NCBI GenBank assembly: GCA_001603115.1
Contig: LVBG01000018.1
Location: forward strand, 1-64,000
Length of the DNA stretch: 64,000 nucleotides
Source of the DNA: Spirochaetales bacterium Spiro_05
GTDB lineage: Bacteria; Spirochaetota; Spirochaetia; Sphaerochaetales; Sphaerochaetaceae
Reading direction: 5' to 3'
Both the position numbers and the translations under genes were made by a program. Positions within the stretch are counted from its first letter, which is position 1; each line of letters begins with the position of its first letter. The notes under the pieces are model-generated. The model saw only the letters and a program-made list of their open reading frames with translations. It searched no databases and was not told the DNA's origin. Below are positions 8,390 through 31,682 of this stretch, piece by piece.

Positions 8390-10750
8390 CTAGTTCCCAA
8401 GAACCTCTTGGACTACCGGCGGAGTGAATACGAACTGGGGTCCGTACAGTGCAAGACGCTCCTTGGCCTCCTTGCGCACCCACCCGAGCTTGAGCAGTAT
8501 TGCGATGATCTCGTTGGAGTCCCCGCGCCTGAGCATGGAGCGTTCCCGGCCGAAGCACTCGCACCAGATCTCCATGGTGCACACCTTGGTCCGGACGCAC
8601 TCCCCCGAAGGTTTGCCGTCGACGAAGCCGAAGCCGTCGAGATAGGACCTCCGCTCTCCGATGTCCATTGCTTCCCACCGTGATGGGAGTGTGGTGGCCA
8701 GGTAGTCGGCTACGATTCCCTCGCGCTCATCGGCTTCAAGCGCATCAAGCTGCTCGTCCTTCGCCATGGCTTCGACCTCGGGCTCCAGATACAGCTGCTC
8801 GCCTGCCTCAACGAGACATTTGACCTCAGCCCAGATTTGTTTTACCTCATCGTCGCCCATCTCCCAGGGACGCTTGGTGTTGCTGCCGGGGGTGTTGACC
8901 GGCCAGAAGCGCCGGTTGCCTGTGGTATCCCTCAGATATCCGCTCTGTGCGTTCGTGGTGCCGATGAAGATGCACTGGCGGGGATGGGGGGTTGTCCGGC
9001 GACCATAGGCTGCACGGAAGATATCGTTCTGGCGCGAGATGAAAGACCTGAGGGTCTCGGTCTCGGCTTTCCTCAGCCCTGCCAGCTCGCCGACCTCCAT
9101 GATCCAGTAGCCCTGCAGCTTCTCCGCAGCCGTCTTGTCCTTGGTGTCGCTCAGGTGCAGGCTGTCGGAGTACCAGGGGCCTGCGAGCTTTGCTATGGTG
9201 GTGCTCTTGCCGATACCCTGGGGACCGCAGAGCACCGGCATGCTGTCGAACTTGCACCCCGGGGTGAGAACGCGCTTGTATGCCGCACACAAGGTCTTTC
9301 GGGTGACGCTCCTGGTATAGAGGGTGTCGGGGGACCCGAGATAGTCGATGAATACCAACTCGGCCCGCACTTTGCCGTCCCAAGCCGGGAGTGCGTCGAA
9401 GTATTGGCGGATGGGATGGTAGGAGCGGTCGTCGGCTACCTTGGAGATTGCGATATCGTAGTTGCGCGAGCTGAAGGTCCCGTAGTTGGCATCGATGTAG
9501 CTGATGAGCTGCGAGTCATCAGCATCGCGCCAGAACCGGGACGGATGCTGCCAGGGAACCTCTCCGGTAATCTCGATGGCGTCCAGCAACTGGTTGAATG
9601 CGATGTTTTGCAAGGCCTTGTCGTGTTCGAGGATGAGCTTGAGGTTGTGCAGCGAGTTCATCAGGACCATCGAGCGTTTCTCTCGTACCAGGCCCTTCTT
9701 CCATTCTTCACCATCGTCATCGGCGGGAAACTCCTGTTTTGCCTTGGCTTGCCTTTCGGCGAGTATAAGCATATTCACCCGCTCATCCTTGCTGGCAAGG
9801 TCCGCCATGGCGTTGAAGGTCTTGATCGGATCGTCATCGCCGAAATGGTGGATCCTGACCAGGTCGAAGGCATTGAGCCTCCGTCCACAGGCGGGATCGC
9901 TGGCATGGTAGGATTGGGCGAACTTGTCTTCATAGATCGCGAGCCCAGAGGTGCTGTCGGCGGGGATGTAGCTGTATCTGTCAACAACGGTCGTGGGTTC
10001 GTAGATGTGTGAAAGGAATGTCTCTATGGCATCCTGGATCGGGTAATAGGTACGGCAGAACGCTCCTACGAGGCCTTCCTTCGCAAGCGGATCCTCCTGC
10101 ATCTTGCCCGATGGTGTATGCACTGTGCTTTCGCGGGACGAGGTGGGCAGGAGAGAACAGTCCTTCCAATCGGGATGGGATGCGAGGAACACATCGGGAT
10201 CCAGCCACGGGCCGTCGATGCGATCGAACACGTATTCTCCGTTGGAGGGTGTGGTCGGCCAATACATCAGCTGGTGGGGGCGATAGGAGCATTCATCGAA
10301 TTGGTCGATACCCCACTTTGCAGCCAGGTGCCTGGTGATCGCCACGTATTCATCGGAACTCACATCCCTGGTGAGCGGGACGAGGATGCGCACCCGTGGA
10401 TTCTCAGGGGTGTGGCTGTGGGTGGTGTACAGGCAGGCGGCGTAGGCGCACTGTGTCTTGAACGCTGCCACGAAATCCACGCTTGCACGGTCCGCATCGA
10501 AGGCCAGCATCGATCGGCTCGCGACGTTTTCCCGCCGCCTCCGGTTGTCCTTCAGCCGGCCAGCGACGAACCCTCCCTTGTCCTTCACTTTGTCGCGTTG
10601 TGCCTTCGGGAGTTTGGGATACTCCTGGACGGACTCGGTCGTGCGGATGGTGGTCGATAGGCGATCGCACAGGGCGTCGAATGTCGTGGTCTTGTTGCTC
10701 CATGTCTTCGCATGACAGCTGTTGCCATAGGCGATATTCAGCTCTCTCAT
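8390..10750 (-). CDS. VapE-type primase-helicase
   Basis: 786 residues, two parts. The N-terminal part (about 60-330) has a primase-polymerase look: LAFDAD at 82-87 could be the metal-binding acidic pair and SYRPHQLMYWPT follows. The C-terminal part is the virulence-associated E helicase: GPQGIGKST (Walker A, 509-517), WIMEVGEL (Walker B, 549-556), a GTTN sensor (597-600) and a GNRRFWPV segment. Such fusions start phage DNA replication. The ATG has AAGGAGA upstream and overlaps the antirepressor stop by four bases. Length and motif order are complete; no frameshift. Confidence 0.92.
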   Translation of the reverse strand: MRELNIAYGNSCHAKTWSNKTTTFDALCDRLSTTIRTTESVQEYPKLPKAQRDKVKDKGGFVAGRLKDNRRRRENVASRSMLAFDADRASVDFVAAFKTQCAYAACLYTTHSHTPENPRVRILVPLTRDVSSDEYVAITRHLAAKWGIDQFDECSYRPHQLMYWPTTPSNGEYVFDRIDGPWLDPDVFLASHPDWKDCSLLPTSSRESTVHTPSGKMQEDPLAKEGLVGAFCRTYYPIQDAIETFLSHIYEPTTVVDRYSYIPADSTSGLAIYEDKFAQSYHASDPACGRRLNAFDLVRIHHFGDDDPIKTFNAMADLASKDERVNMLILAERQAKAKQEFPADDDGEEWKKGLVREKRSMVLMNSLHNLKLILEHDKALQNIAFNQLLDAIEITGEVPWQHPSRFWRDADDSQLISYIDANYGTFSSRNYDIAISKVADDRSYHPIRQYFDALPAWDGKVRAELVFIDYLGSPDTLYTRSVTRKTLCAAYKRVLTPGCKFDSMPVLCGPQGIGKSTTIAKLAGPWYSDSLHLSDTKDKTAAEKLQGYWIMEVGELAGLRKAETETLRSFISRQNDIFRAAYGRRTTPHPRQCIFIGTTNAQSGYLRDTTGNRRFWPVNTPGSNTKRPWEMGDDEVKQIWAEVKCLVEAGEQLYLEPEVEAMAKDEQLDALEADEREGIVADYLATTLPSRWEAMDIGERRSYLDGFGFVDGKPSGECVRTKVCTMEIWCECFGRERSMLRRGDSNEIIAILLKLGWVRKEAKERLALYGPQFVFTPPVVQEVLGN

Positions 10751-21452: not shown

Positions 21453-21518
21453 TTGGTTATTAAAAACCAATTGACAGAATTTATGAGGCGTGATATATTT
21501 TTGGTTATGAAAAACCAA
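21453..21518 (+). promoter_or_regulatory. Promoter bracketed by two 18-bp palindromes
   Basis: TTGACA (21471-21476), exactly 17 bases, TATATT (21494-21499): a near-consensus sigma-70 promoter. Palindrome one, TTGGTT-ATTAAA-AACCAA (21453-21470), ends where the -35 begins. Palindrome two, TTGGTT-ATGAAA-AACCAA (21501-21518), covers the start point and the ATG at 21507. The centres are 48 bp apart. Both fit a single dimeric regulator. Confidence 0.75.
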
Positions 21519-23318
21519 AATAATAAACAAACGACCACTATGTTGCTTTCAAGTAATCAAGAGAAGTTATCAGATCAAATATTCCTCAATCATGTTGAGA
21601 TGGTTCAGTCTTTCCTTGATGTAAATCTCAAGCCAAATCATCAATTGACTGGTGGTTTCATGAATCTTACGACTTCAATACCTATTATAAAAATTTTGTA
21701 CTGTTATCTTGTTTTAATATCCAACGAATTTACTGAGTCTGAGGACGCCACTTTAAACGATGTCTTAGAGCGTTCGGATGAATATAATCCAGCAATAAGT
21801 GCTTATTATAAGAAAATCCTCGACCTAAGAACCTTTAATGAGTTGAGGCTTCTTCTCTCTAATATGACAGATTCTAGCGATATTCTAAAATACATTGTTG
21901 AAGAAGAATGTTCTTCATTTGAATGGTCTACACCTGAATCAATTGTTTCACTTGCTCTTGAAATACTGGATATCAAAGAAGGAGAAACAGTTGTAGATGT
22001 TGGTTCGGGTACCGGTACTTTTTTGTTGAATGGCGTCGCAGAAAAGCCAAAAGCAGAATTTACTGGTCTTGAAATCAATACTGTGATGTTTCTTGTCAGC
22101 TTGATGAGGAATTACATTCACAATGGTGATGCCAAGAACGATAATCTTAAGATAATTCAGACTGATGCATTCGACCTTGTTGAGTCCGATTCAAACAAAC
22201 GGTTTGACAAGGTGTTTTCAAATTATCCAATCAATATGCAATTTAAATTTTCTGGAATCGGGCAGAGGTACTTGGAAAGAATTTCCAATACCGTTCCTGA
22301 AATAAGATCATTGGGATCGGGAGATTGGATATTTAATAGATTGATTCGGGATCTTACTTCCAACACGCCTGATGGGAAAGCTGTAGGAATAATGGCTGGA
22401 GGTGGTACTTGGAACCTTACAGATAAGTTTACTAGAAGAAGTTTTCTTGATCTTGGGATTGTGGAATGCGTGATTGCACTTCCTGCAAAATTATTCAAAG
22501 ATACGAATATTCCTGTCATGATGATCGTATTTAGCTTTGGCAATAATAGTGTGAGAATGATTGATGCTACAGCCTTCTTCAAACCGGGAAGACGTCAAAA
22601 TTCCATGAATGCTGAGCATGTTAGCCAAGTAGTCGAAGCCTTGAATATTGACTCCAAATATAGCCGATTGGTGGAATATGAGGAAATGGAGAAACAGGAT
22701 TTTGTATTGGACCCATGTAGGTACCTGCATCACAAAATTGAGATAGAATATGGTGTCCCGTTTGAATCTGTGATCAAGAGCATCACCAGAGGTGCACAAA
22801 AGACTGCGAAAGAGTTGGACCAGCTTGTAACACAGCAACCCACGAATATCCAATATCTGATGCTGTCCAACATCCAGGATGGGCTCATTGACGATGAACT
22901 CAGTTCACTTAAAGTACTCGACCCCAGTCTTGAGAAGTATTGCTTGAAAGATAATGATCTTATTCTTTCTAAGAATGGATATCCATACAAAGTAGCGATT
23001 GCACATCCACGACCCGGCCAGAAAATTCTAGCGAATGGTAATCTGTATGTCATCGAGTTAGATCAAGATAAGATCAATCCACTTTACCTCAAAGCCTTTT
23101 TGGAAAGTGAGACTGGGATAAACATTTTGAAAAGTATTACTGTTGGTGCAACGATTCCGAATCTGGGAGTGGAAAAGCTTAAGAAAATCCAAATTCCCCT
23201 TCCTCCGTTGCATGAACAAAATAAAGTGGCGGTTAGGTATCTTGCTCAACTTGAAGAAATCAGAGTCCTCCGCATCAAACTTGATAAAGCCATCAAGAGA
23301 TTGGGGGAGGTGTTCTGA
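21507..23318 (+). CDS. Methylase-specificity fusion protein (N6-adenine, type I-like)
   Basis: 603 residues. Residues about 130-420 are an HsdM-like methyltransferase: VVDVGSGTG (162-170) is the AdoMet loop, and the catalytic motif IV is SNYPI (238-242), a variant of the usual NPP(F/Y). Residues about 430-603 are one target-recognition domain plus a conserved helix, as in HsdS: IQYLMLSNIQDG, then GATIPNLGVEKLKKIQIPLPPLHEQ. This half-S fusion would need to dimerise to read a site. ATG at 21507 sits seven bases after the -10 box, so the message may lack a leader. No nuclease is attached. The stop overlaps the next ATG (TGATG). Confidence 0.8.
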   Translation: MKNQNNKQTTTMLLSSNQEKLSDQIFLNHVEMVQSFLDVNLKPNHQLTGGFMNLTTSIPIIKILYCYLVLISNEFTESEDATLNDVLERSDEYNPAISAYYKKILDLRTFNELRLLLSNMTDSSDILKYIVEEECSSFEWSTPESIVSLALEILDIKEGETVVDVGSGTGTFLLNGVAEKPKAEFTGLEINTVMFLVSLMRNYIHNGDAKNDNLKIIQTDAFDLVESDSNKRFDKVFSNYPINMQFKFSGIGQRYLERISNTVPEIRSLGSGDWIFNRLIRDLTSNTPDGKAVGIMAGGGTWNLTDKFTRRSFLDLGIVECVIALPAKLFKDTNIPVMMIVFSFGNNSVRMIDATAFFKPGRRQNSMNAEHVSQVVEALNIDSKYSRLVEYEEMEKQDFVLDPCRYLHHKIEIEYGVPFESVIKSITRGAQKTAKELDQLVTQQPTNIQYLMLSNIQDGLIDDELSSLKVLDPSLEKYCLKDNDLILSKNGYPYKVAIAHPRPGQKILANGNLYVIELDQDKINPLYLKAFLESETGINILKSITVGATIPNLGVEKLKKIQIPLPPLHEQNKVAVRYLAQLEEIRVLRIKLDKAIKRLGEVF

Positions 23319-23860
23319 TGCAATATACTCCACTTGATGTCGAAGAAATAGTAGAGCTTGAAGAGAGACTCTTAGCTGTTCTGAAGGAGGATTTTTATAC
23401 GATCCTTCTTAACCTCAATAGATCAGAACAGTTGGGCAATCTTCTCATTCTATTGGGACATCCGGAGCTGATAGAGAAGAATGATAATGGGTATGTTCCG
23501 CTAACTGATAGGTCTATTGTAATACTTGGAGAATCAAGCATTGATGCGAATGATGTTATGAAGACCATCACTAAATTTGGTATATCAAAGGATAGAGTCG
23601 AATTACATCTAGGATACAAACCGAATGGTTTTAACCTTGATGCGCTCAAGTATTCAATCAACTACTCATTGGTACTTGTGGGGCCGATGCCACATAGTAT
23701 GGAAGGGAAAGACGAATATACAAGTATAATCAGCAGAATGGAGAAAGAAGCAGGTTTCCCTCCGGTCAAGAGATTAATTGCTGGAAATGAGCTTAAGATT
23801 ACCAAGACCTCAATTAGAAATGCGATTGGAGAGGCTTTCGAGAAGGGAATCATAACCTAA
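23318..23860 (+). CDS. Rossmann-like partner of the methylase fusion, function unknown
   Basis: 180 residues. The N-terminal helices (VEEIVELEERLLAVLKEDF) are followed by an alternating strand-helix part: SIVILGESSIDANDVMKTI, RVELHLGYKPN, YSLVLVGPMPHSMEGKDEY and a KRLIAGNELKITKTSIRNAI end. A nucleotide-binding or TIR-like Rossmann fold is plausible, but no catalytic motif is certain. It is translated from TGATG with GGGGGAGG upstream, so it is made with the methylase fusion. I recall similar unnamed proteins beside such fusions in Firmicutes, but cannot confirm it. It could be the regulator of the palindromes, a cofactor or an effector. Confidence 0.75.
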   Translation: MQYTPLDVEEIVELEERLLAVLKEDFYTILLNLNRSEQLGNLLILLGHPELIEKNDNGYVPLTDRSIVILGESSIDANDVMKTITKFGISKDRVELHLGYKPNGFNLDALKYSINYSLVLVGPMPHSMEGKDEYTSIISRMEKEAGFPPVKRLIAGNELKITKTSIRNAIGEAFEKGIIT

Positions 23861-24062: not shown

Positions 24063-26501
24063 ATGGCAGTTAAGAAATCGGAGCTTTACAATTCACTGTG
24101 GGATTCTTGCGACCAGCTGCGTGGCAGTATGGATGCAAGCCAATACAAGGATTACATTCTAGTACTCCTGTTCATGAAATATGTTTCAGATAAGCATCGT
24201 GCTACTCTTGTAGAAGTTCCTGAAGGTGCAAGCTTCAACGACATGGTGAAGCTAAAAGGCAAAGCGGATATCGGAGACCAAATTAACAAGATTATCGGCA
24301 AGATGGCCGAGGCCAATGCCTTGACCGGAGTAATCACGGTCGCGGATTTCAATGATGATGAGAAATTGGGAAGAGGTAAGGAGAAGGTCGACAGGCTAAG
24401 CAACCTGATTGCGATATTCGAACGTCCCGAACTCGATTTCAGCAAGAACATGGCTGAAGGGGATGACTTGCTTGGTGATGCCTACGAATATTTGATGAGA
24501 TTGTTCGCCACGGAAAGTGGAAAGAGCAAGGGACAATTCTATACGCCGGCAGAAGTCTCCAGGATTATGGCCCGACTCATTGGTATCAACCAATCAAAGA
24601 GCCAGGATGAAACGTTGTATGACCCTACCTGTGGATCCGGTTCACTTCTTTTAAAGGCTGCGAGTGAGACACAGAACAATATCACCATTTACGGGCAGGA
24701 ATATGACAATGCCACACGAGCTTTATGTGTGATGAATATGTGGTTACATGATAATCCCGATTCTGATATTCGCCTAGGAAACACCCTAGCTAATCCTCTT
24801 TTCTTGAATGACGATACAGGAGCCTTGAAACAATTTGATTATGCTGTAGCCAATCCACCTTTTTCCTATAAGTCTTGGAGGAATGGATGGGATCCAGAGC
24901 ATGATGTGTTCAAGCGATTCGAGGGATATCCTCTACCACCCGACAAGAACGGAGACTATGCGTTCCTGATTCATCTGGTCAAATCCTTGAAGTCCAAAGG
25001 CAAGGGCTGTATCGTCATGCCTTTGGGGGTTTTGTTCAGAGGGAATTCCGAAGGGCTTCTTCGTAAGCGACTTATTCAACAGGGCTACATCAAAGGCATC
25101 ATCGGATTACCTCCGAACTTATTTTATGGAACAGGTATTGCCGCTTGTCTGATAGTCATCGATAAGGAGCATGCTGCAGAAAGGAAAAGCATCTTCATGA
25201 TTGATGCAAGCAAAGGCTTCATCAAGGATGGAAATAAGAATCGTCTTCGGGAGCAGGATATCCATAAGATTATTGATACCTTCCTTTCTGGCACTGAGAA
25301 CCCTAAATATTCCAGAATTGTGCCCATCGAAGAGATTGCCAGTGAGAAGAACGACTACAACCTCAATATTCCTAGATACATAGATAACCAGGATGAAGAG
25401 GATATACAGGATATCCAAGCGCATCTCTCTGGAGGATTTCCAAGATATGATGTGGAATCTTTGGAAGATTATTGGAAGGTGTTTCCGAAGTTGAGGCAGG
25501 GTTTATTCAATATCACTGACAGGGATGGATATTATGAACTTTCCGTCGGCACTGACTCGGTGCGAGAGTTTATTCTTAACCATCAAGATTCCATTGACTT
25601 TAAGCAGTTGCTTCTCTCCGACTTTAAGGTGTGGAAGCAAAATATAGCTACATTCTTGAAGAGCCTGGAACCAGGGGAGAAACCTAAGGGAATCATCGAA
25701 AACATATCTGAAGGATTGTTGCAATTATTTGCTGATAAAACGCTTACCGATAAATATGACCTCTATCAGATTCTCATGGATTATTGGTATGAGGTCATGC
25801 AGGATGATGTGTATGTCATTTCGACCGGGGGATGGACTGCTGGAAGAGAGCTGAACCGTCTGATGAAGAAGAATTCCAAAGGTGTAGATAAAGCAGTGTC
25901 TGGATTAGACGGATTGGAAGGTAGAATTATCCCCACAGCTCTTATTATTCAGGAATACTTTGCTGAATTGCAGCAACAGATAGAAGATATTGAAGCAGAA
26001 TTGGATTCTATCAAATCTAGAAAGGCTGAAATCGATGAAGAGAATGGGACCTCTGATGATAGTCTAATTAATGATGCCTATGTCGAGGGGAAGACTTCAA
26101 AGAAACAGCTGAAGGATGCTCTGGCTGACTTGGGTAAGAGAGACGATGAGAATGCAGAAGCCCATGACTTGTTGAACGAGTATCTAGAATTGTTGGAGAA
26201 AGAACCTTCCTTGAAAAAATCTTTGAATGCATTGAAGAATGAGATTGAAAGGAAAGTGATTTCAAAATATCCCAAACTTTCAGAGGAAGAAATAAAGACT
26301 CTCATTGTTGATAAGAAGTGGTTCTCAACAATTAGTGAACGCATCGAAGCTGAATTGGACAACATCAGCCATCGGTTATCAAATAGGATAAAGGAACTTG
26401 CTGATAGATATGAAAAACCAATAATACTGATTGAGAAGGAAGTTGAGGATTTGACAAGCAAAGTTGAAGAACACTTGAAGGCGATGGGGATGGCATTGTA
26501 A
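24063..26501 (+). CDS. hsdM: Type I restriction-modification methyltransferase subunit
   Basis: 812 residues. The HsdM N-terminal domain (SLWDSCDQLRGSMDASQYKDYIL) is followed by GQFYTP, DPTCGSGS (187-194, AdoMet) and NPPF (264-267, catalytic). The C-terminal 250 residues are strongly charged and probably coiled-coil; this makes it longer than the E. coli HsdM (about 530), as in the large HsdM group. It methylates adenine in the site read by HsdS and is needed for restriction. AGAGG precedes the ATG. First gene of a four-gene operon; its stop overlaps hsdS by one base (TAATG). Confidence 0.93.
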   Translation: MAVKKSELYNSLWDSCDQLRGSMDASQYKDYILVLLFMKYVSDKHRATLVEVPEGASFNDMVKLKGKADIGDQINKIIGKMAEANALTGVITVADFNDDEKLGRGKEKVDRLSNLIAIFERPELDFSKNMAEGDDLLGDAYEYLMRLFATESGKSKGQFYTPAEVSRIMARLIGINQSKSQDETLYDPTCGSGSLLLKAASETQNNITIYGQEYDNATRALCVMNMWLHDNPDSDIRLGNTLANPLFLNDDTGALKQFDYAVANPPFSYKSWRNGWDPEHDVFKRFEGYPLPPDKNGDYAFLIHLVKSLKSKGKGCIVMPLGVLFRGNSEGLLRKRLIQQGYIKGIIGLPPNLFYGTGIAACLIVIDKEHAAERKSIFMIDASKGFIKDGNKNRLREQDIHKIIDTFLSGTENPKYSRIVPIEEIASEKNDYNLNIPRYIDNQDEEDIQDIQAHLSGGFPRYDVESLEDYWKVFPKLRQGLFNITDRDGYYELSVGTDSVREFILNHQDSIDFKQLLLSDFKVWKQNIATFLKSLEPGEKPKGIIENISEGLLQLFADKTLTDKYDLYQILMDYWYEVMQDDVYVISTGGWTAGRELNRLMKKNSKGVDKAVSGLDGLEGRIIPTALIIQEYFAELQQQIEDIEAELDSIKSRKAEIDEENGTSDDSLINDAYVEGKTSKKQLKDALADLGKRDDENAEAHDLLNEYLELLEKEPSLKKSLNALKNEIERKVISKYPKLSEEEIKTLIVDKKWFSTISERIEAELDNISHRLSNRIKELADRYEKPIILIEKEVEDLTSKVEEHLKAMGMAL

Positions 26502-27808
26502 TGGAGAAGCATATACCAGAAGGATACAAACAGACTGAAGTCGGAATATTTCCTGAAGATTGGGTTGAGAAACGTATTGGAGATATTTTTGATTTTAAAA
26601 ATGGTCTAAATAAGGGAAAAGAATACTTCGGATATGGAATACCGATTATTAATTATATGGATGTCTACAAAAACTCAAGTATTCTTGGTAAGAACCTAAA
26701 AGGGAGAGTAAGCCTTAATAAAAATGAAATTGAAACCTACAAAGTGAACAAAGGCGATGTATTTTTTACAAGGACATCTGAAACAGTTGAGGAAATCGGA
26801 ATGTCCGCGGTTTTATTAGAAGATTCGAGTGATACTGTCTTTAGTGGTTTTTTATTGAGGGCTAGGCCAAGAAACCAAATATTAGACTTAGAGTTCTGCA
26901 AATACTGTTTCTCACATAAACAAATAAGGAGACAAATACTTCAAAAAGCTTCATTTACTACTAGAGCTCTAACAAATGGGAAATTACTCTCGCGAGTAAT
27001 CTTACTAATTCCACCTACTAAAACTGAACAACAATCCATTGCCACAGCCTTATCCGATGTTGATAATCTCATCACTTCCCTAGAGCAACTAATCGAAAAG
27101 AAGAAAGCCATCAAACAGGGAACCATGCAGGAGTTGCTCACTGGGAAAAGACGGTTGAAGGGATTCGGTGAAGGAAAGGGATACAAGCAGACTGAGTTGG
27201 GGTTGATTCCTGAGGATTGGGAGGTGAAGAGATTGCATGAATTGGGAAAATTCCAATCTGGAATCGGTTTCCCATTGCATTTACAAGGCAAGCACCAGGA
27301 GGTTATTCCATTCTACAAAGTTTCCGATATGAATAATAATGGGAACGAAGTTTTTATGCTGAATAGCAATAACTATATTTCACAGAAGGTGTTGATAGAA
27401 TTGGGAGCAACTCTGATACCGAGAAGTTCAATAGTATTTGCAAAAATTGGAGCTGCATTATTTCTAGAAAGAAAAAGATTACTTTTAGTTGATAGCCTCA
27501 TTGATAATAACATGATGGCAATAATTGCAGATATTGATACTATCGATACAAAATATCTGTATTACTTACTCATAAACATAAAATTAAGTAAATATGCAAA
27601 TACAACTGCACTTCCATCTATCAACAGAAATGATATTGGAGAAATCAATTTAAAAATTCCAACCTTATATGAGCAGCAAGCTATTACAGAAGTCCTTACA
27701 AATATGGATTCTGAAATTGAAAACCTAGAAACCAAAGTCAATAAATACAAACAAATCAAACAGGGGATGATGCAGAACCTCCTCACAGGAAGGATAAGGT
27801 TGGCGTGA
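26501..27808 (+). CDS. hsdS: Type I specificity subunit
   Basis: 435 residues with the classical two-repeat build. Each half opens with GYKQTE.G..PEDW (residues about 8-21 and 228-241), then a target-recognition domain, then a conserved helix (TEQQSIATALSDVDNLI and YEQQAITEVLTNMDSEI) ending in KQG.MQ.LLTGK/RRL. The two target domains differ, so the recognised site is bipartite and asymmetric. The DNA of the two repeat openings is still nearly identical (26521 and 27179), which permits recombination between halves. Starts at ATG overlapping the hsdM stop and ends on TGATG with hsdR. Confidence 0.93.
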   Translation: MEKHIPEGYKQTEVGIFPEDWVEKRIGDIFDFKNGLNKGKEYFGYGIPIINYMDVYKNSSILGKNLKGRVSLNKNEIETYKVNKGDVFFTRTSETVEEIGMSAVLLEDSSDTVFSGFLLRARPRNQILDLEFCKYCFSHKQIRRQILQKASFTTRALTNGKLLSRVILLIPPTKTEQQSIATALSDVDNLITSLEQLIEKKKAIKQGTMQELLTGKRRLKGFGEGKGYKQTELGLIPEDWEVKRLHELGKFQSGIGFPLHLQGKHQEVIPFYKVSDMNNNGNEVFMLNSNNYISQKVLIELGATLIPRSSIVFAKIGAALFLERKRLLLVDSLIDNNMMAIIADIDTIDTKYLYYLLINIKLSKYANTTALPSINRNDIGEINLKIPTLYEQQAITEVLTNMDSEIENLETKVNKYKQIKQGMMQNLLTGRIRLA

Positions 27809-30800
27809 TGAACCAAAAACAAAAGACTGAGAGGGAAACCCAGAACAGGGTAATCAAGCTGTTTCAGAACGAGCTGGGATATGCCTACCTTGGGGATTGG
27901 ACTGAAAGACCTGATAACAGCAATGTGGAAGAATCGATACTCACAGATTGGCTTAGGAAGAAAGGGTATGAAGAGAGCCTAGTCAACAAAGCCCTACATA
28001 AGATTCGGAACATCATCGGGAACAAGTCCATTTCCCTGTATGAAGCAAACAAGAATTTCTATTCGCTATTACGCTATGGCGTTAACGTCCAGACAAGCGC
28101 AGGACAGCACAACCAGAATGTGCATCTCATTGATTGGGAAAATCCCCAGGCAAATGATTTTGCTATTGCAGAAGAAGTGAGCATCGAGGGGTTTAATAAG
28201 AAACGACCTGATATCGTCCTGTATGTAAATGGGATTGCCCTTGGAGTATTGGAGCTCAAACGAAGCACCGTCTCTGTTTCAGAAGGAATCAGACAGAATC
28301 TTGATAACCAGAAACATCTGTTCATAGGACCTTTCTTCCATACGATGCAACTGGTCATGGCAGGGAATGACTCCGAAGGACTGCGGTATGGTTCAATCGA
28401 GACTCCCGAGAAATACTATCTGACTTGGAAAGAGGTTCGCGAGCAGAATCTGGACAATCCTAATCTCTTGGAAATGACCGCAACCATCAGAGGACTGTCC
28501 CAGAAGCAATCGATTCTGCTGGATAAGCACATTGTCCAGATGCTCAATAAGGAACGATTCTTGGAGCTTATCCACGATTTCATCGTATTTGACAAGGGAA
28601 TCAAGAAGCTCTGCAGGCATAACCAGTATTTCGGAGTTAAATCAGCCCAGGATTTCATCCACAGGAACAAAGGCGGTATAATTTGGCACACACAGGGAAG
28701 TGGCAAGAGCCTGACGATGGTTTGGTTGGCGAAGTGGATTCATGAGCAATACCACGATGGTAGGGTGCTCCTCATCACCGACAGGGAAGAGCTGGATGAC
28801 CAAATACAGAAGGTGTTCAGTGGAGTCGATGAGGAGATCTATCGGACCAAAAGTGGTAGGGATTTGTTGGAGCAGTTGAATGCGACTGCTCCTTGGCTGA
28901 TATGTTCGCTGGTACATAAGTTCAAAGGCAAAGAGGAAGATGATGTAGAGGATTACCTGAACGATATTCGAGGAAATCTTCCCACTGATTTCAGGGCTAA
29001 GGGAAAAATTTTCGTATTTGTTGATGAATGTCACCGTACACAATCAGGGAAGCTGCATAGGGCGATGAAGGAAATCCTTACCGAGAATGCTATCTTCATC
29101 GGTTTCACAGGAACGCCTTTATTGAAATCCGACAAGATTTCTTCCAGTTTTGAAGTCTTCGGGGACTACATTCATACCTACAAATTCGATGAAGGAGTAG
29201 AGGATGGTGTCATCCTTGACTTGAGGTATGAAGCGCGTGATGTGGAACAGACTCTGGGATCGGAAGAGAAGATTGACGATTGGTTTGATGCAGCCACGAA
29301 AGGAATGACTGATACAGCCAAGGCGACCCTGAAACAACGATGGGGAACTTTGAAGAAGCTGTTCAGCTCAAAGAACCGACTGGAACAGATAGTTGCCGAT
29401 ATCCTGATGGACATGATGAAGAAGGAACGGCTTCAGAATGGGAAAGGAAACGCGATCCTTGTATCGGATAGCATATACAACGCATGCAGGTATTACGAAC
29501 TCTTTACCCAATCGCATTTCAAGAAATGTGCAATCATCACCAGCTACAATCCAAATATTTCAGATATAAAGGGAGAATCGACCGGAGAGGACGGGTATAC
29601 GGAGAAACTGAAGCGGTTTGAAATCTACCAAAAGATGCTCTCCGAGTATTTCCATGAACCTGCAGAAAGAGCGGTGAATAGGGTAGAGGAATTCGAGCGT
29701 GAAGTGAAGGAGAAATTCATCAAGGAACCTGCACAGATGAAACTGCTGATTGTGGTGGACAAGCTCCTTACCGGTTTTGATGCTCCTCCTGCAACCTACA
29801 TGTACATCGACAAATCCCTGCAGAATCATGGTCTCTTCCAAGCAGTGTGTAGGGTCAACCGTTTGGATGGAGAAGACAAGGAATATGGATATATCATTGA
29901 TTACAAGGATTTATTCGACAGCCTTAAGAGTGCGTTCTATGATTACACCACTGGAGCTCTCGCTGGTTATGATCCCAAGGATGTTAGTGGCTTCTTGAAG
30001 AACAAGCTTGTTGAAGGAAAGAAGAAGCTGGAGGATTCGCTCGAAGCTGTTAAAGCTCTTTGTGAGGCTGTGGATATGCCAAAGAGTGAGGTTGATTTCC
30101 TCGACTATTTTGTGGGTGATACAGAATTTAAGGATACACTCCAGGATACTGAACCCCAACGGGTTGCACTGTATAAGTTGGTCACTTCCTTGGTGAGGGC
30201 GTATGCGAATATTGCGGATGAGATGGAAGAGGCGGGATTCTCTGAACAGGAGGCACGTTCAATCCAATCGGATGTCGCTTTCTACCATAGCATGAAGAGG
30301 GCAGTGGAACTTGCCAGTGGTGATTATATCGAGCTCAAGAAATATGAACCAGCGATGAGGTTCCTCCTTGATTCCTACATCGGTGCCAAGGAAAGTCGTG
30401 TTCTTGCAGCATTTGAGGATATCAGTCTTGTGGATATGTTGGTGGAGAAAGGTGCCGATGCTGTTAAGGATTTGCCTGAGAACATCAAGAAACACAAGGA
30501 GGCGGTTGCTGAGGTTATAGAGGGAAACTATAGAAAAGAAATTGTGGAACAGGAAATCACCAACCCCGCCTACTATGCGAAGATGAGTGAACTTCTCGAT
30601 TCTCTGATATCTGAGCGAAAGAAACAGACCAAAGAATATGAAGAGTATCTACAAGAACTGATTGCCTTCGCTCCCAGGATAAAGAATCCTGAGCATTCCA
30701 CCAGTTATCCTGCTGGAATCGATTCACCTGCCAAGAGAGCTCTCTGGGACAACTTCAACAAGGGATATGACTTTGTCAGTGATGTCCACGAAGCCATCAT

Positions 30801-30948
30801 GGGCTCCAAAAAAGATGGATGGAGAGACCATCCCATCAAGTTGCGGGCAGTGAAGAAGGCTGTGGGGAGTATACTAGAAAAGCATGGAGTCGATGATTTT
30901 TCAGAAGCAGATATTGTCGAACTTGCTAGGAATCAACGGGAATACTGA
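27808..30948 (+). CDS. hsdR: Type I restriction endonuclease subunit
   Basis: 1046 residues. The nuclease domain near the N-terminus has RPDIVLYVNGIALGVLELKR (D135, E149, K151). Then come the translocase motifs TQGSGKS (295-301), VDECHR (DECH 406-409) and FTGTP (434-437), and later LLTGFDAPPATYMYID with QAVCRVNR. Full length and intact, so restriction should be active. An in-frame GTG one codon earlier exists; the ATG at 27808 is used because it overlaps the hsdS stop (TGATG). A helical C-terminus of about 250 residues mediates complex assembly in this family. Confidence 0.95.
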   Translation: MNQKQKTERETQNRVIKLFQNELGYAYLGDWTERPDNSNVEESILTDWLRKKGYEESLVNKALHKIRNIIGNKSISLYEANKNFYSLLRYGVNVQTSAGQHNQNVHLIDWENPQANDFAIAEEVSIEGFNKKRPDIVLYVNGIALGVLELKRSTVSVSEGIRQNLDNQKHLFIGPFFHTMQLVMAGNDSEGLRYGSIETPEKYYLTWKEVREQNLDNPNLLEMTATIRGLSQKQSILLDKHIVQMLNKERFLELIHDFIVFDKGIKKLCRHNQYFGVKSAQDFIHRNKGGIIWHTQGSGKSLTMVWLAKWIHEQYHDGRVLLITDREELDDQIQKVFSGVDEEIYRTKSGRDLLEQLNATAPWLICSLVHKFKGKEEDDVEDYLNDIRGNLPTDFRAKGKIFVFVDECHRTQSGKLHRAMKEILTENAIFIGFTGTPLLKSDKISSSFEVFGDYIHTYKFDEGVEDGVILDLRYEARDVEQTLGSEEKIDDWFDAATKGMTDTAKATLKQRWGTLKKLFSSKNRLEQIVADILMDMMKKERLQNGKGNAILVSDSIYNACRYYELFTQSHFKKCAIITSYNPNISDIKGESTGEDGYTEKLKRFEIYQKMLSEYFHEPAERAVNRVEEFEREVKEKFIKEPAQMKLLIVVDKLLTGFDAPPATYMYIDKSLQNHGLFQAVCRVNRLDGEDKEYGYIIDYKDLFDSLKSAFYDYTTGALAGYDPKDVSGFLKNKLVEGKKKLEDSLEAVKALCEAVDMPKSEVDFLDYFVGDTEFKDTLQDTEPQRVALYKLVTSLVRAYANIADEMEEAGFSEQEARSIQSDVAFYHSMKRAVELASGDYIELKKYEPAMRFLLDSYIGAKESRVLAAFEDISLVDMLVEKGADAVKDLPENIKKHKEAVAEVIEGNYRKEIVEQEITNPAYYAKMSELLDSLISERKKQTKEYEEYLQELIAFAPRIKNPEHSTSYPAGIDSPAKRALWDNFNKGYDFVSDVHEAIMGSKKDGWRDHPIKLRAVKKAVGSILEKHGVDDFSEADIVELARNQREY

Positions 30949-31682
30949 TGAACGCCATACTACAAGTTGAATCTATTTCTATACTCGATGTGGAGGTTGA
31001 GATATTTCGTAAAGATATCAAGAACATCCATCTCAGAGTTTATCCTCCTGAGGGGTTTGTACGGGCTACAGTCCCTTTTGATATGGATAGAGATGCCATC
31101 AGGTTGTTTCTGGTGAAGAAAATCAGCTGGATTCGAAAACAGCAGGAAGATTTTAGAAAGGTTGAACGCCAGACACCACGAGATTTCCTAAGAAGGGAAA
31201 GTCATTACTTCTTGGGCTTACGATATCTTCTGGATGTGGTTGAAAGTAACGAGAAGCAACAGGTGGTTCAGAAGAATAAAAAGACCCTAGTGCTACAAAT
31301 GAGACCAGAAGCATCCCATATCAAGGCTCAGGAAATAATGGATGCATTTTATCGGAATGAGTTGAAATTGATTGTTTCGAGTCTCATTGAGAAGTGGGAG
31401 CCCCTTCTGAAGGTCCAAGTGTCTGATTGGCAAGTGAATAAAATGAGAACTCGTTGGGGAACGTGTAACCCTGAGAAGAAGAGGATCTTGATTAACTTGG
31501 AACTGGCTAAGAAGCCGCCACGCTGTATCGAATATATAGTGGTTCATGAGTTGGTGCACCTATTGGAAAGAACTCACAATGAACATTTCATTGAATTGAT
31601 GGATTCGTTTCTCCCAAACTGGAGGGCCTTGAAACACGAGTTGAATAGCTTGCCAGTGAGTCATGCTGATTGGAATTATTGA
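30948..31682 (+). CDS. YgjP-like (DUF45) metallopeptidase of the hsd operon
   Basis: 244 residues. TRWGTC (168-173) and VVHELVHLLERTHNEHF with HELVH at 200-204 and H210 are the YgjP/SprT-like zinc-peptidase signature. Genes of this family often follow hsdR in type I operons; the job is not known, with restriction alleviation by proteolysis one suggestion. The ATG overlaps the hsdR stop (TGATG), so it is made in step with HsdR, which supports a functional link. The protein looks complete. Confidence 0.88.
   Translation: MNAILQVESISILDVEVEIFRKDIKNIHLRVYPPEGFVRATVPFDMDRDAIRLFLVKKISWIRKQQEDFRKVERQTPRDFLRRESHYFLGLRYLLDVVESNEKQQVVQKNKKTLVLQMRPEASHIKAQEIMDAFYRNELKLIVSSLIEKWEPLLKVQVSDWQVNKMRTRWGTCNPEKKRILINLELAKKPPRCIEYIVVHELVHLLERTHNEHFIELMDSFLPNWRALKHELNSLPVSHADWNY

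Follow-up and report, generated by a model that had tools for sequence, protein, structure and literature searches.

Anatomy of the locus

The window analyzed here is a 64,000-nucleotide stretch of a contig from Spirochaetales bacterium Spiro_05. On its forward strand, positions 21507-23318 carry a gene for a 603-residue protein that joins an HsdM-like part (Pfam N6_Mtase, residues 134-410, positions 21906-22736, 3.7e-31) to a single HsdS-type recognition domain, or TRD (Pfam Methylase_S, residues 475-586, positions 22929-23264, 1.2e-10). Alignment places the sequence SNYPI at motif IV (residues 238-242, positions 22218-22232), where it replaces NPPF. Both this replacement and the fusion of an HsdM-like domain to one HsdS recognition domain, reported in an earlier note made from the DNA letters, were confirmed by Pfam and by the sequence itself. 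The TRD matches solved TRDs, including Esub1 of 8vsr/8vsq.

The TGA stop codon of this M-S fusion gene overlaps the ATG of ORF B, a 180-residue frame on the same strand (23318-23860), confirming the previously described translational coupling by TGATG. A type I operon follows on the forward strand, comprising hsdM (24063-26501, NPPF intact), hsdS (26501-27808, two Methylase_S stretches) and hsdR (27805-30948), all identified by Pfam and by strong PADLOC matches. The claim that no restriction subunit follows is accurate for the gene pair but fails for the locus, where hsdMSR (24063-30948) starts 202 bp on. Weak promoter sites matching 9 of 12 positions lie near the 202-bp gap, which may hold hsdM's own promoter.

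Several further features were recorded around these genes. A YgjP/SprT-type metalloprotease gene lies behind or near restriction-modification genes in the window (30948-31682), in L024 (2097-2795) and in L029 (9457-9497). Between 8.4 and 16.3 kb the window carries phage-type helicase/primase, antirepressor, exonuclease, single-stranded DNA-binding and DNA polymerase genes. An IMG/VR provirus record from the same genome (L009, window positions 1-23860) matches the M-S gene, its coordinates being those of the window, and ends exactly at the end of ORF B; among viral contigs, this record alone carries a window-type M-S protein. A search of viral contigs for the operator-promoter pattern returned the same record and one match that, by eye, falls inside a phage DNA polymerase gene.

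The M-S promoter is bracketed by paired palindromes

A forward-strand promoter agreeing with the consensus at 11 of 12 positions (TTGACA-17-TATATT, 21471-21499) precedes the M-S gene, its -35 hexamer at 21471-21476 separated by a 17-bp spacer from the -10 hexamer at 21494-21499. As the earlier note had proposed, it is bracketed by two TTGGTT-N6-AACCAA palindromes. Putative operator 1 (TTGGTTATTAAAAACCAA, 21453-21470) abuts the -35 hexamer, and a like site occupies the same place in the relatives L005, L008 and G560. Putative operator 2 (TTGGTTATGAAAAACCAA, 21501-21518) covers the expected transcription start and includes the ATG at 21507-21509. The two palindromes are direct repeats of one another, identical at 17 of 18 bases. 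The reading frame opens mechanically at a TTG (21453), and the gene likely starts at 21507; the 18 bases preceding 21507 contain no Shine-Dalgarno sequence, so the message would be leaderless.

We scored pairs of 18-mers for palindromic 6-bp arms and for half-sites that match, with a maximum of 24. The window promoter scores 24, a value reached by none of 200 dinucleotide shuffles, and scores of at least 22 occur in five of 3192 sliding 170-bp segments across the 64 kb, all five covering the M-S promoter. The exact TTGGTTN6AACCAA palindrome occurs three times in the source genome (2.3 Mb, 69 contigs, 68.6% complete), at the two operators and at L003, where it lies inside a coding sequence, an ABC permease by eye, and was taken as chance. 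The core GGTTN6AACC is not enriched in this genome (49 occurrences versus 61 for the control).

Relatives of the M-S fusion

Relatives of the M-S fusion were found across five phyla. Scanning genome contigs yielded one (L005, 70%), and a plasmid collection yielded a Subdoligranulum sequence from another phylum (L008, 42.5%, on a Bacillota plasmid) together with ten more distant fusions (L019-L028). A profile search identified 3 of 392 genomes of the phylum. A looser cut-off raised this to 49 of 392, of which seven (G000, G387, G046, G273, G218, G197 and G375) matched over both parts of the model and most of the rest over methylase positions only. Further profile searches identified 14 of 274 genomes from the family of G273, 1 of 9 from the class to which G046 belongs and 3 of 139 from the window's own family, counts that overlap one another and those for the phylum.

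The aligned set comprises 29 M-S fusions. Left out of it were L030 (Thermus, NPPF intact), L080 (gene start past the contig end), L082 (TRD part only) and L084, identical in sequence to L005 (of these two, one comes from a genome of the window's family and the other from the named MAG Sphaerochaeta sp. UBA6084). A further candidate, L029, turned out to be an ordinary HsdM. Short frames of 214-233 residues in G391 (L059), G268, G259 and G297 match only the TRD part of the profile and are possibly stand-alone single-TRD proteins. In a tree of the methylase part, built without G455 and G558, most M-S fusions lie outside the HsdM group, while L020 and the Thermus sequence fall with the HsdMs. Support for a clade of all core members is weak (0.105), as is deep support generally; because of this and the placement of L020 and Thermus, M-S fusions possibly arose more than once.

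Motif decay in the methylase half

The window protein retains the N6_Mtase fold, and the HsdM motif IV [ND]PP[YFW] is present in 0 of 29 aligned M-S fusions versus 8 of 8 HsdMs checked (seven in one alignment plus the G560 HsdM). The corresponding residues read NYPI in the window and L005, DYPF in L008, NYPF in G560 and NFPF in L020. SAM motif I is near-normal in the window, L005 and L008 and is altered or missing in most others, judged over 20 non-Thermus M-S fusions. Given the loss of [ND]PP[YFW] in 29 of 29 and the state of the SAM motif in most, the M-S protein is likely no longer a methylase. The earlier suggestion of a methylation or epigenetic switch is disfavored by the altered motif IV and by a methylase half that in most pairs has diverged more quickly than the TRD.

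Motif decay is least advanced in the window group. In the window protein the SAM motif reads DVGSGTG and the catalytic position still holds an N, and an N or D is retained in motif IV of the window, L005, L008 and G560. Weak catalysis is therefore conceivable in this group, and residual catalysis or SAM sensing is possible on the strength of these motifs. A plasmid fusion from Thermus thermophilus (L030, 3695-5671) keeps NPPF intact, so an active M-S fusion apparently exists as well. None of the 29 aligned frames contains an internal stop.

The protein was also compared with other restriction-modification components. The window protein has a single Methylase_S match, in the same chain as the M part, and not the two TRDs in a separate chain expected of an HsdS. 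A Pfam scan to E values of up to 1 detected no HTH family in it, and at 603 residues it is neither a small HTH protein nor a four-helix DNA-binding protein of the C-protein or RptR kind. Judged from sequence, it would work like a controller protein while belonging to no regulator family tested, and by motif it does not appear to be a functional HsdM.

Operators recur in one clade

The paired sites recur with the gene. L005 carries the window's 18-mer twice, one copy abutting TTGACA and one over the ATG, around a promoter (TTGACA-17-TACTTT) that was read directly, the promoter scan having preferred another site. L008 has GGTTATTAAAAACC twice, at the -35 and past the -10, and G560, of genus g13, has TTGGTTATGAATAACCA against TTGACA and TTGGTTATACAAAACCAA past TATATT. 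Two GGTT-N6-AACC sites lie over and after the -10 in G046, which belongs to another class of the phylum. Elsewhere in genus g13, sites stand upstream of the -35 and past the -10 in G197 (TTGATAAACGTTTATCAA and TTGATAAACGCTTATCAA) and in G557 (TTGTATAAGATTATACAG and TTGTATAAGACTATACAA); those of G558 and G550 resemble G197's, and G218 has a less perfect version. G273 combines TTGAATAAGATTATTCAA with a weaker second site, and weaker TTGAATA-type sites were seen by eye in G387, G455, G422 and G477. The promoter hexamers lie at or between the operators.

A strict test was applied to 34 rows, namely 29 gene starts and five operon starts. Nine of the 15 core promoters (window, L005, L008, G046, G197, G558, G550, G560 and G557) score 22-24, each with 0 of 200 shuffles reaching its score; since G197, G558 and G550 are close kin, these represent six or seven lineages. 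The other six core promoters (G387, G455, G273, G218, G422 and G477) failed, each having one imperfect site read by eye. In total 25 of 34 rows fell below the passing level, the lowest among them being the L023 operon start (2 of 200 shuffles) and G422 (3 of 200). None of the 14 distant relatives (L019-L028, G375a/b, G513 and G689) passed at the gene start, and none of the five operon starts did, L023 being the best. The operator evidence consequently covers one clade, and the wider family may act otherwise. Single palindromes occur upstream of several distant relatives and a like pair only in L020 (4099-7000), where AGTAAT-N3-ATTACT appears twice (15 bp, 98 bp apart) upstream of a DUF2325 gene.

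A separate scan took in 188 upstream regions, those of M-S genes among them, in 18 loci. Six scored at least 22: the M-S promoters of L005, L008, G046, G197 and G560, plus a divergent neighbor sharing one of these regions. That scan used mechanical starts and so misses the window promoter, which the sliding scan of the window finds alone. Among the window, L005, L008 and G560 (G046 was left out), the GGTT operators are pairwise 83-100% identical, whereas the DNA between them is 50-73% identical, against a shuffled mean of 56. Examined as a possible autoregulator, the gene has operators at its own promoter that are conserved with it in the window clade and not in distant relatives. The conserved regulatory arrangement in this one clade is real.

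Operator type tracks the recognition domain

Within the clade, half-sites follow TRD class and take the forms GGTT, TTGATAA, TTGTATA and TTGAATA. Inside genus g13, G560, with a TRD 59% identical to the window's, has GGTT operators, and members with other TRDs have TTGATAA-type sites (G197, G218, G558 and G550), TTGTATA (G557) or TTGAATA-type sites (G387, G273, G455, G422 and G477). Operator type therefore goes with the TRD and not with the host genus. These observations give good support, in the window clade, to the earlier view of the gene as self-controlled: the operators accompany the gene in its relatives and vary with TRD class.

The HsdM subunit is normally better conserved than the TRD. 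Among M-S fusions of the GGTT class the TRD is the more conserved part in 10 of 10 pairs (for example 60/33 and 59/31), and it is better conserved in most other core pairs too. The exceptions are several pairs with the truncated G046 and the near-identical pairs G197-G558 (97/99) and G558-G550 (93/95).

Neighborhoods and ORF B

Neighborhoods were read for 25 of the 29 fusions (G558, G550, G455 and G689 were left out). In eight of them hsdM is the next gene or lies one small gene away. The window and G560 have ORF B and then a full hsdMSR; L005 has ORF B followed by a longer frame containing an HsdM; L008 has an hsdM, cut short, behind the M-S gene; L020 has a 151-residue gene in between; and L019, L022 and L023 have hsdM directly behind. 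The M-S gene thus precedes a type I operon in the window and in some relatives, and the notion that the two were acquired independently finds no support in these eight neighborhoods. The longer frame of L005 (6571-9069, 832 residues) joins an apparent ADP-ribosylglycohydrolase, so identified by eye, to HsdM, and a second HsdM-like match follows at 9074-9808.

In the other 17 neighborhoods hsdM is not directly behind the M-S gene. One has cas6 (G046) and the other 16 vary. The G046 fusion is truncated to 389 residues, lacks the SAM part and stands directly ahead of cas6, with a Cas10/Cas7/Cas5/Csx19 type III-D CRISPR set facing it; the whole arrangement spans 482-10456 of L013. L024 lies near hsdR and L027 near a divergent HsdM; L025 precedes genes for a DEAD helicase and an N-6 methylase, and L026 adjoins HipA genes. 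Restriction-modification genes were not found by tblastn in G387, G273, G218, G197 and G375a/b, were not seen by eye in G422, G477, G557 and G513, and are absent from the annotation of L021 and L028. A small Cro/CI-type HTH gene comes next in five g13 loci, identified by Pfam in G387 and G477 and by eye in G273, G218 and G422.

Seven pairs of M-S TRD and own-system HsdS lend no support to a shared specificity, considered here as a route to sensing methylation state: they are 23-28% identical over 53-125 residues in G560, L019, L008 and L023, and no significant match was obtained in the window, L020 and L022.

In L005 and G560 an ORF B homologue (35% to the window's) lies between the M-S gene and hsdM. 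The search for a conserved gene order and palindromes that the earlier note called for thus found partner and palindromes together in both. The sequence GPMPHS is invariant in the four aligned relatives (window ORF B, L005, G560 and L007); in L007 (1462-2802) the ORF B-like domain forms the C-terminus of a TPR-like protein encoded next to part of a UvrD-type helicase gene. The earlier note considered ORF B as a possible defense effector; L008 and G046 both have an M-S gene with operators but no ORF B, which is therefore not a required part. The description of ORF B as Rossmann-like was not confirmed, and no match to a TIR or nucleotide-binding effector emerged: searches of Pfam, PADLOC and PHROGs gave nothing, NCBIfam gave one match at E 0.13 and, searched alone, ORF B has no PDB sequence match. 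A profile of the four relatives matches Nesprin-2 among PDB sequences (E 0.0016), the G560 homologue has no sequence-family match, and tblastn against plasmids and phages returned nothing for ORF B. L020 has its DUF2325 gene ahead of the M-S gene and the unassigned 151-residue gene behind; a link between the DUF2325 gene and ORF B is a guess.

Discussion

A candidate methylase-derived autorepressor

The reading that best accommodates these sequence data, and that we consider likely, is that the 603-residue protein is a methylase-derived transcriptional autorepressor, a dimer that reads the paired operators through its TRD and whose methylase half is no longer catalytic or is on the way to becoming so. 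The M-S gene would then probably turn its own expression on and off, and sometimes that of adjoining phage-defense genes. Two copies would dimerize by way of the one TRD that each carries, in the manner of truncated type IC HsdS subunits, and recognize the interrupted palindrome, with its GGTT-N6-AACC core and 18 bp overall. At sufficient protein, one dimer against the -35 and another over the start point would block RNA polymerase. The methylase half may be kept for dimerization, placement or sensing. The transcript probably runs into ORF B and perhaps on into hsdMSR, in which case the switch may determine how much of the type I system is made and give a delayed or inducible supply of the restriction enzyme.

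The M-S protein is the likely reader of these sites because it is the only part common to the loci and carries a DNA-reading TRD, because within a single genus the operator type changes with the TRD type, and because a single TRD can homodimerize on an interrupted palindrome. The last point has precedents in EcoR124I delta50, EcoDXXI truncations and NgoAV, single-TRD HsdS homodimers that read interrupted palindromes; such homodimers are reported for type IC only (PMC3874165). The fusion resembles these type I M2S assemblies in its HsdM- and HsdS-type domains and in the interrupted palindrome proposed for it (PMC3874165), and differs from them in that M and S form one chain, the catalytic motif is altered and conserved sites stand at its own promoter.

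Other known regulators offer partial parallels. A 2025 review describes promoter methylation (CfrBI), HTH-fused regulatory methylases, antisense RNA and C proteins as type II control modes (PMC12707154). Like the regulatory methyltransferases among these, the M-S fusion is a methylase-type protein proposed to repress its own promoter and shift restriction expression. Unlike it, they are enzymes with an N-terminal HTH that serve type II systems, whereas the proposed reader of the M-S protein is its TRD, its catalysis is apparently lost and its gene adjoins a type I system. RptR, a small repressor at type I operons (PMC12255303), shares with the M-S fusion a place as first gene at type I operons, repeated promoter palindromes, autorepression (proposed here) and an association with other modules too. 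It differs in being an unrelated 9-kDa all-helical protein that acts at TAGCTA sites (PMC12255303). C (controller) proteins are likewise autogenous regulators of restriction-modification operons at their own promoters, as proposed for M-S, but they are small HTH proteins without a methylase or TRD part. Within the literature searched, which takes in only a minority of subscription papers and no bioRxiv preprints, no described M-S pseudo-methylase regulator was found.

Three other explanations were weighed. That the protein is an active solitary methylase of the palindrome, setting expression through methylation of its own promoter sites, has a type II precedent in CfrBI (PMC12707154) and would suit both the adenines in the AACC half-site and the DVGSGTG motif and catalytic-position N of the window protein. 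We judge it quite unlikely given the altered motif IV in all 29 fusions, the deletion of the SAM part in G046 and the faster divergence of its methylase half in most pairs. A methylase site, moreover, would have no need of the spacer ATKAAA, which the window, L005 and L008 keep (G560 and G046 do not); the lack of GGTTN6AACC enrichment in the genome also speaks against such an enzyme, as a weak point. The decay that disfavors an active methylase could instead reflect a redundant methylase gene eroding under weak selection, with palindromes left over from earlier regulation, as progressive motif loss and the 389-residue G046 protein might suggest. Frames free of internal stops in all 29, and GGTT-class TRDs and operators that are conserved while the DNA between the operators stays mostly near the shuffled level, make this highly improbable.

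A different regulator, whether ORF B, a neighboring HTH protein or a host factor, might bind the operators and leave M-S as a defense component or orphan enzyme. ORF B is coupled to the M-S gene in the window, L005 and G560, and the Cro/CI-type HTH protein encoded behind the M-S gene could be the operator binder in the five g13 loci. Yet the next gene encodes no recognized HTH in the window, L005, L008, G046 or G560, operators persist without ORF B in L008 and G046, and the M-S gene is the one part that the loci have in common. Across genera the type of operator goes with the M-S TRD, and inside one genus it varies; with these points together we regard an outside regulator as very unlikely.

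An extension of the autorepressor reading, which we hold possible though doubtful, is that the pseudo-HsdMS protein represents a new class of transcription factor that acts as a decoy sensor, released by phage DNA mimics or SAM depletion so that the defense operon is turned on. Such a protein would still look like an anti-restriction target, and the window copy keeps its SAM motif. The operon switched on would be a type I system, as found in 8 of 25 neighborhoods, or the type III-D CRISPR system of G046.

Were the autorepressor reading correct, some genes annotated as "N-6 DNA methylase" or "type I R-M subunit M/S" would be switches and not enzymes. A type I TRD could then serve as a transcription-factor domain, in a field where the type I operon regulators in the literature searched are unrelated small proteins, and the operator would read out TRD specificity directly, without methylome data. 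The decoy-sensor extension, if true, would link counter-restriction to the induction of defense.
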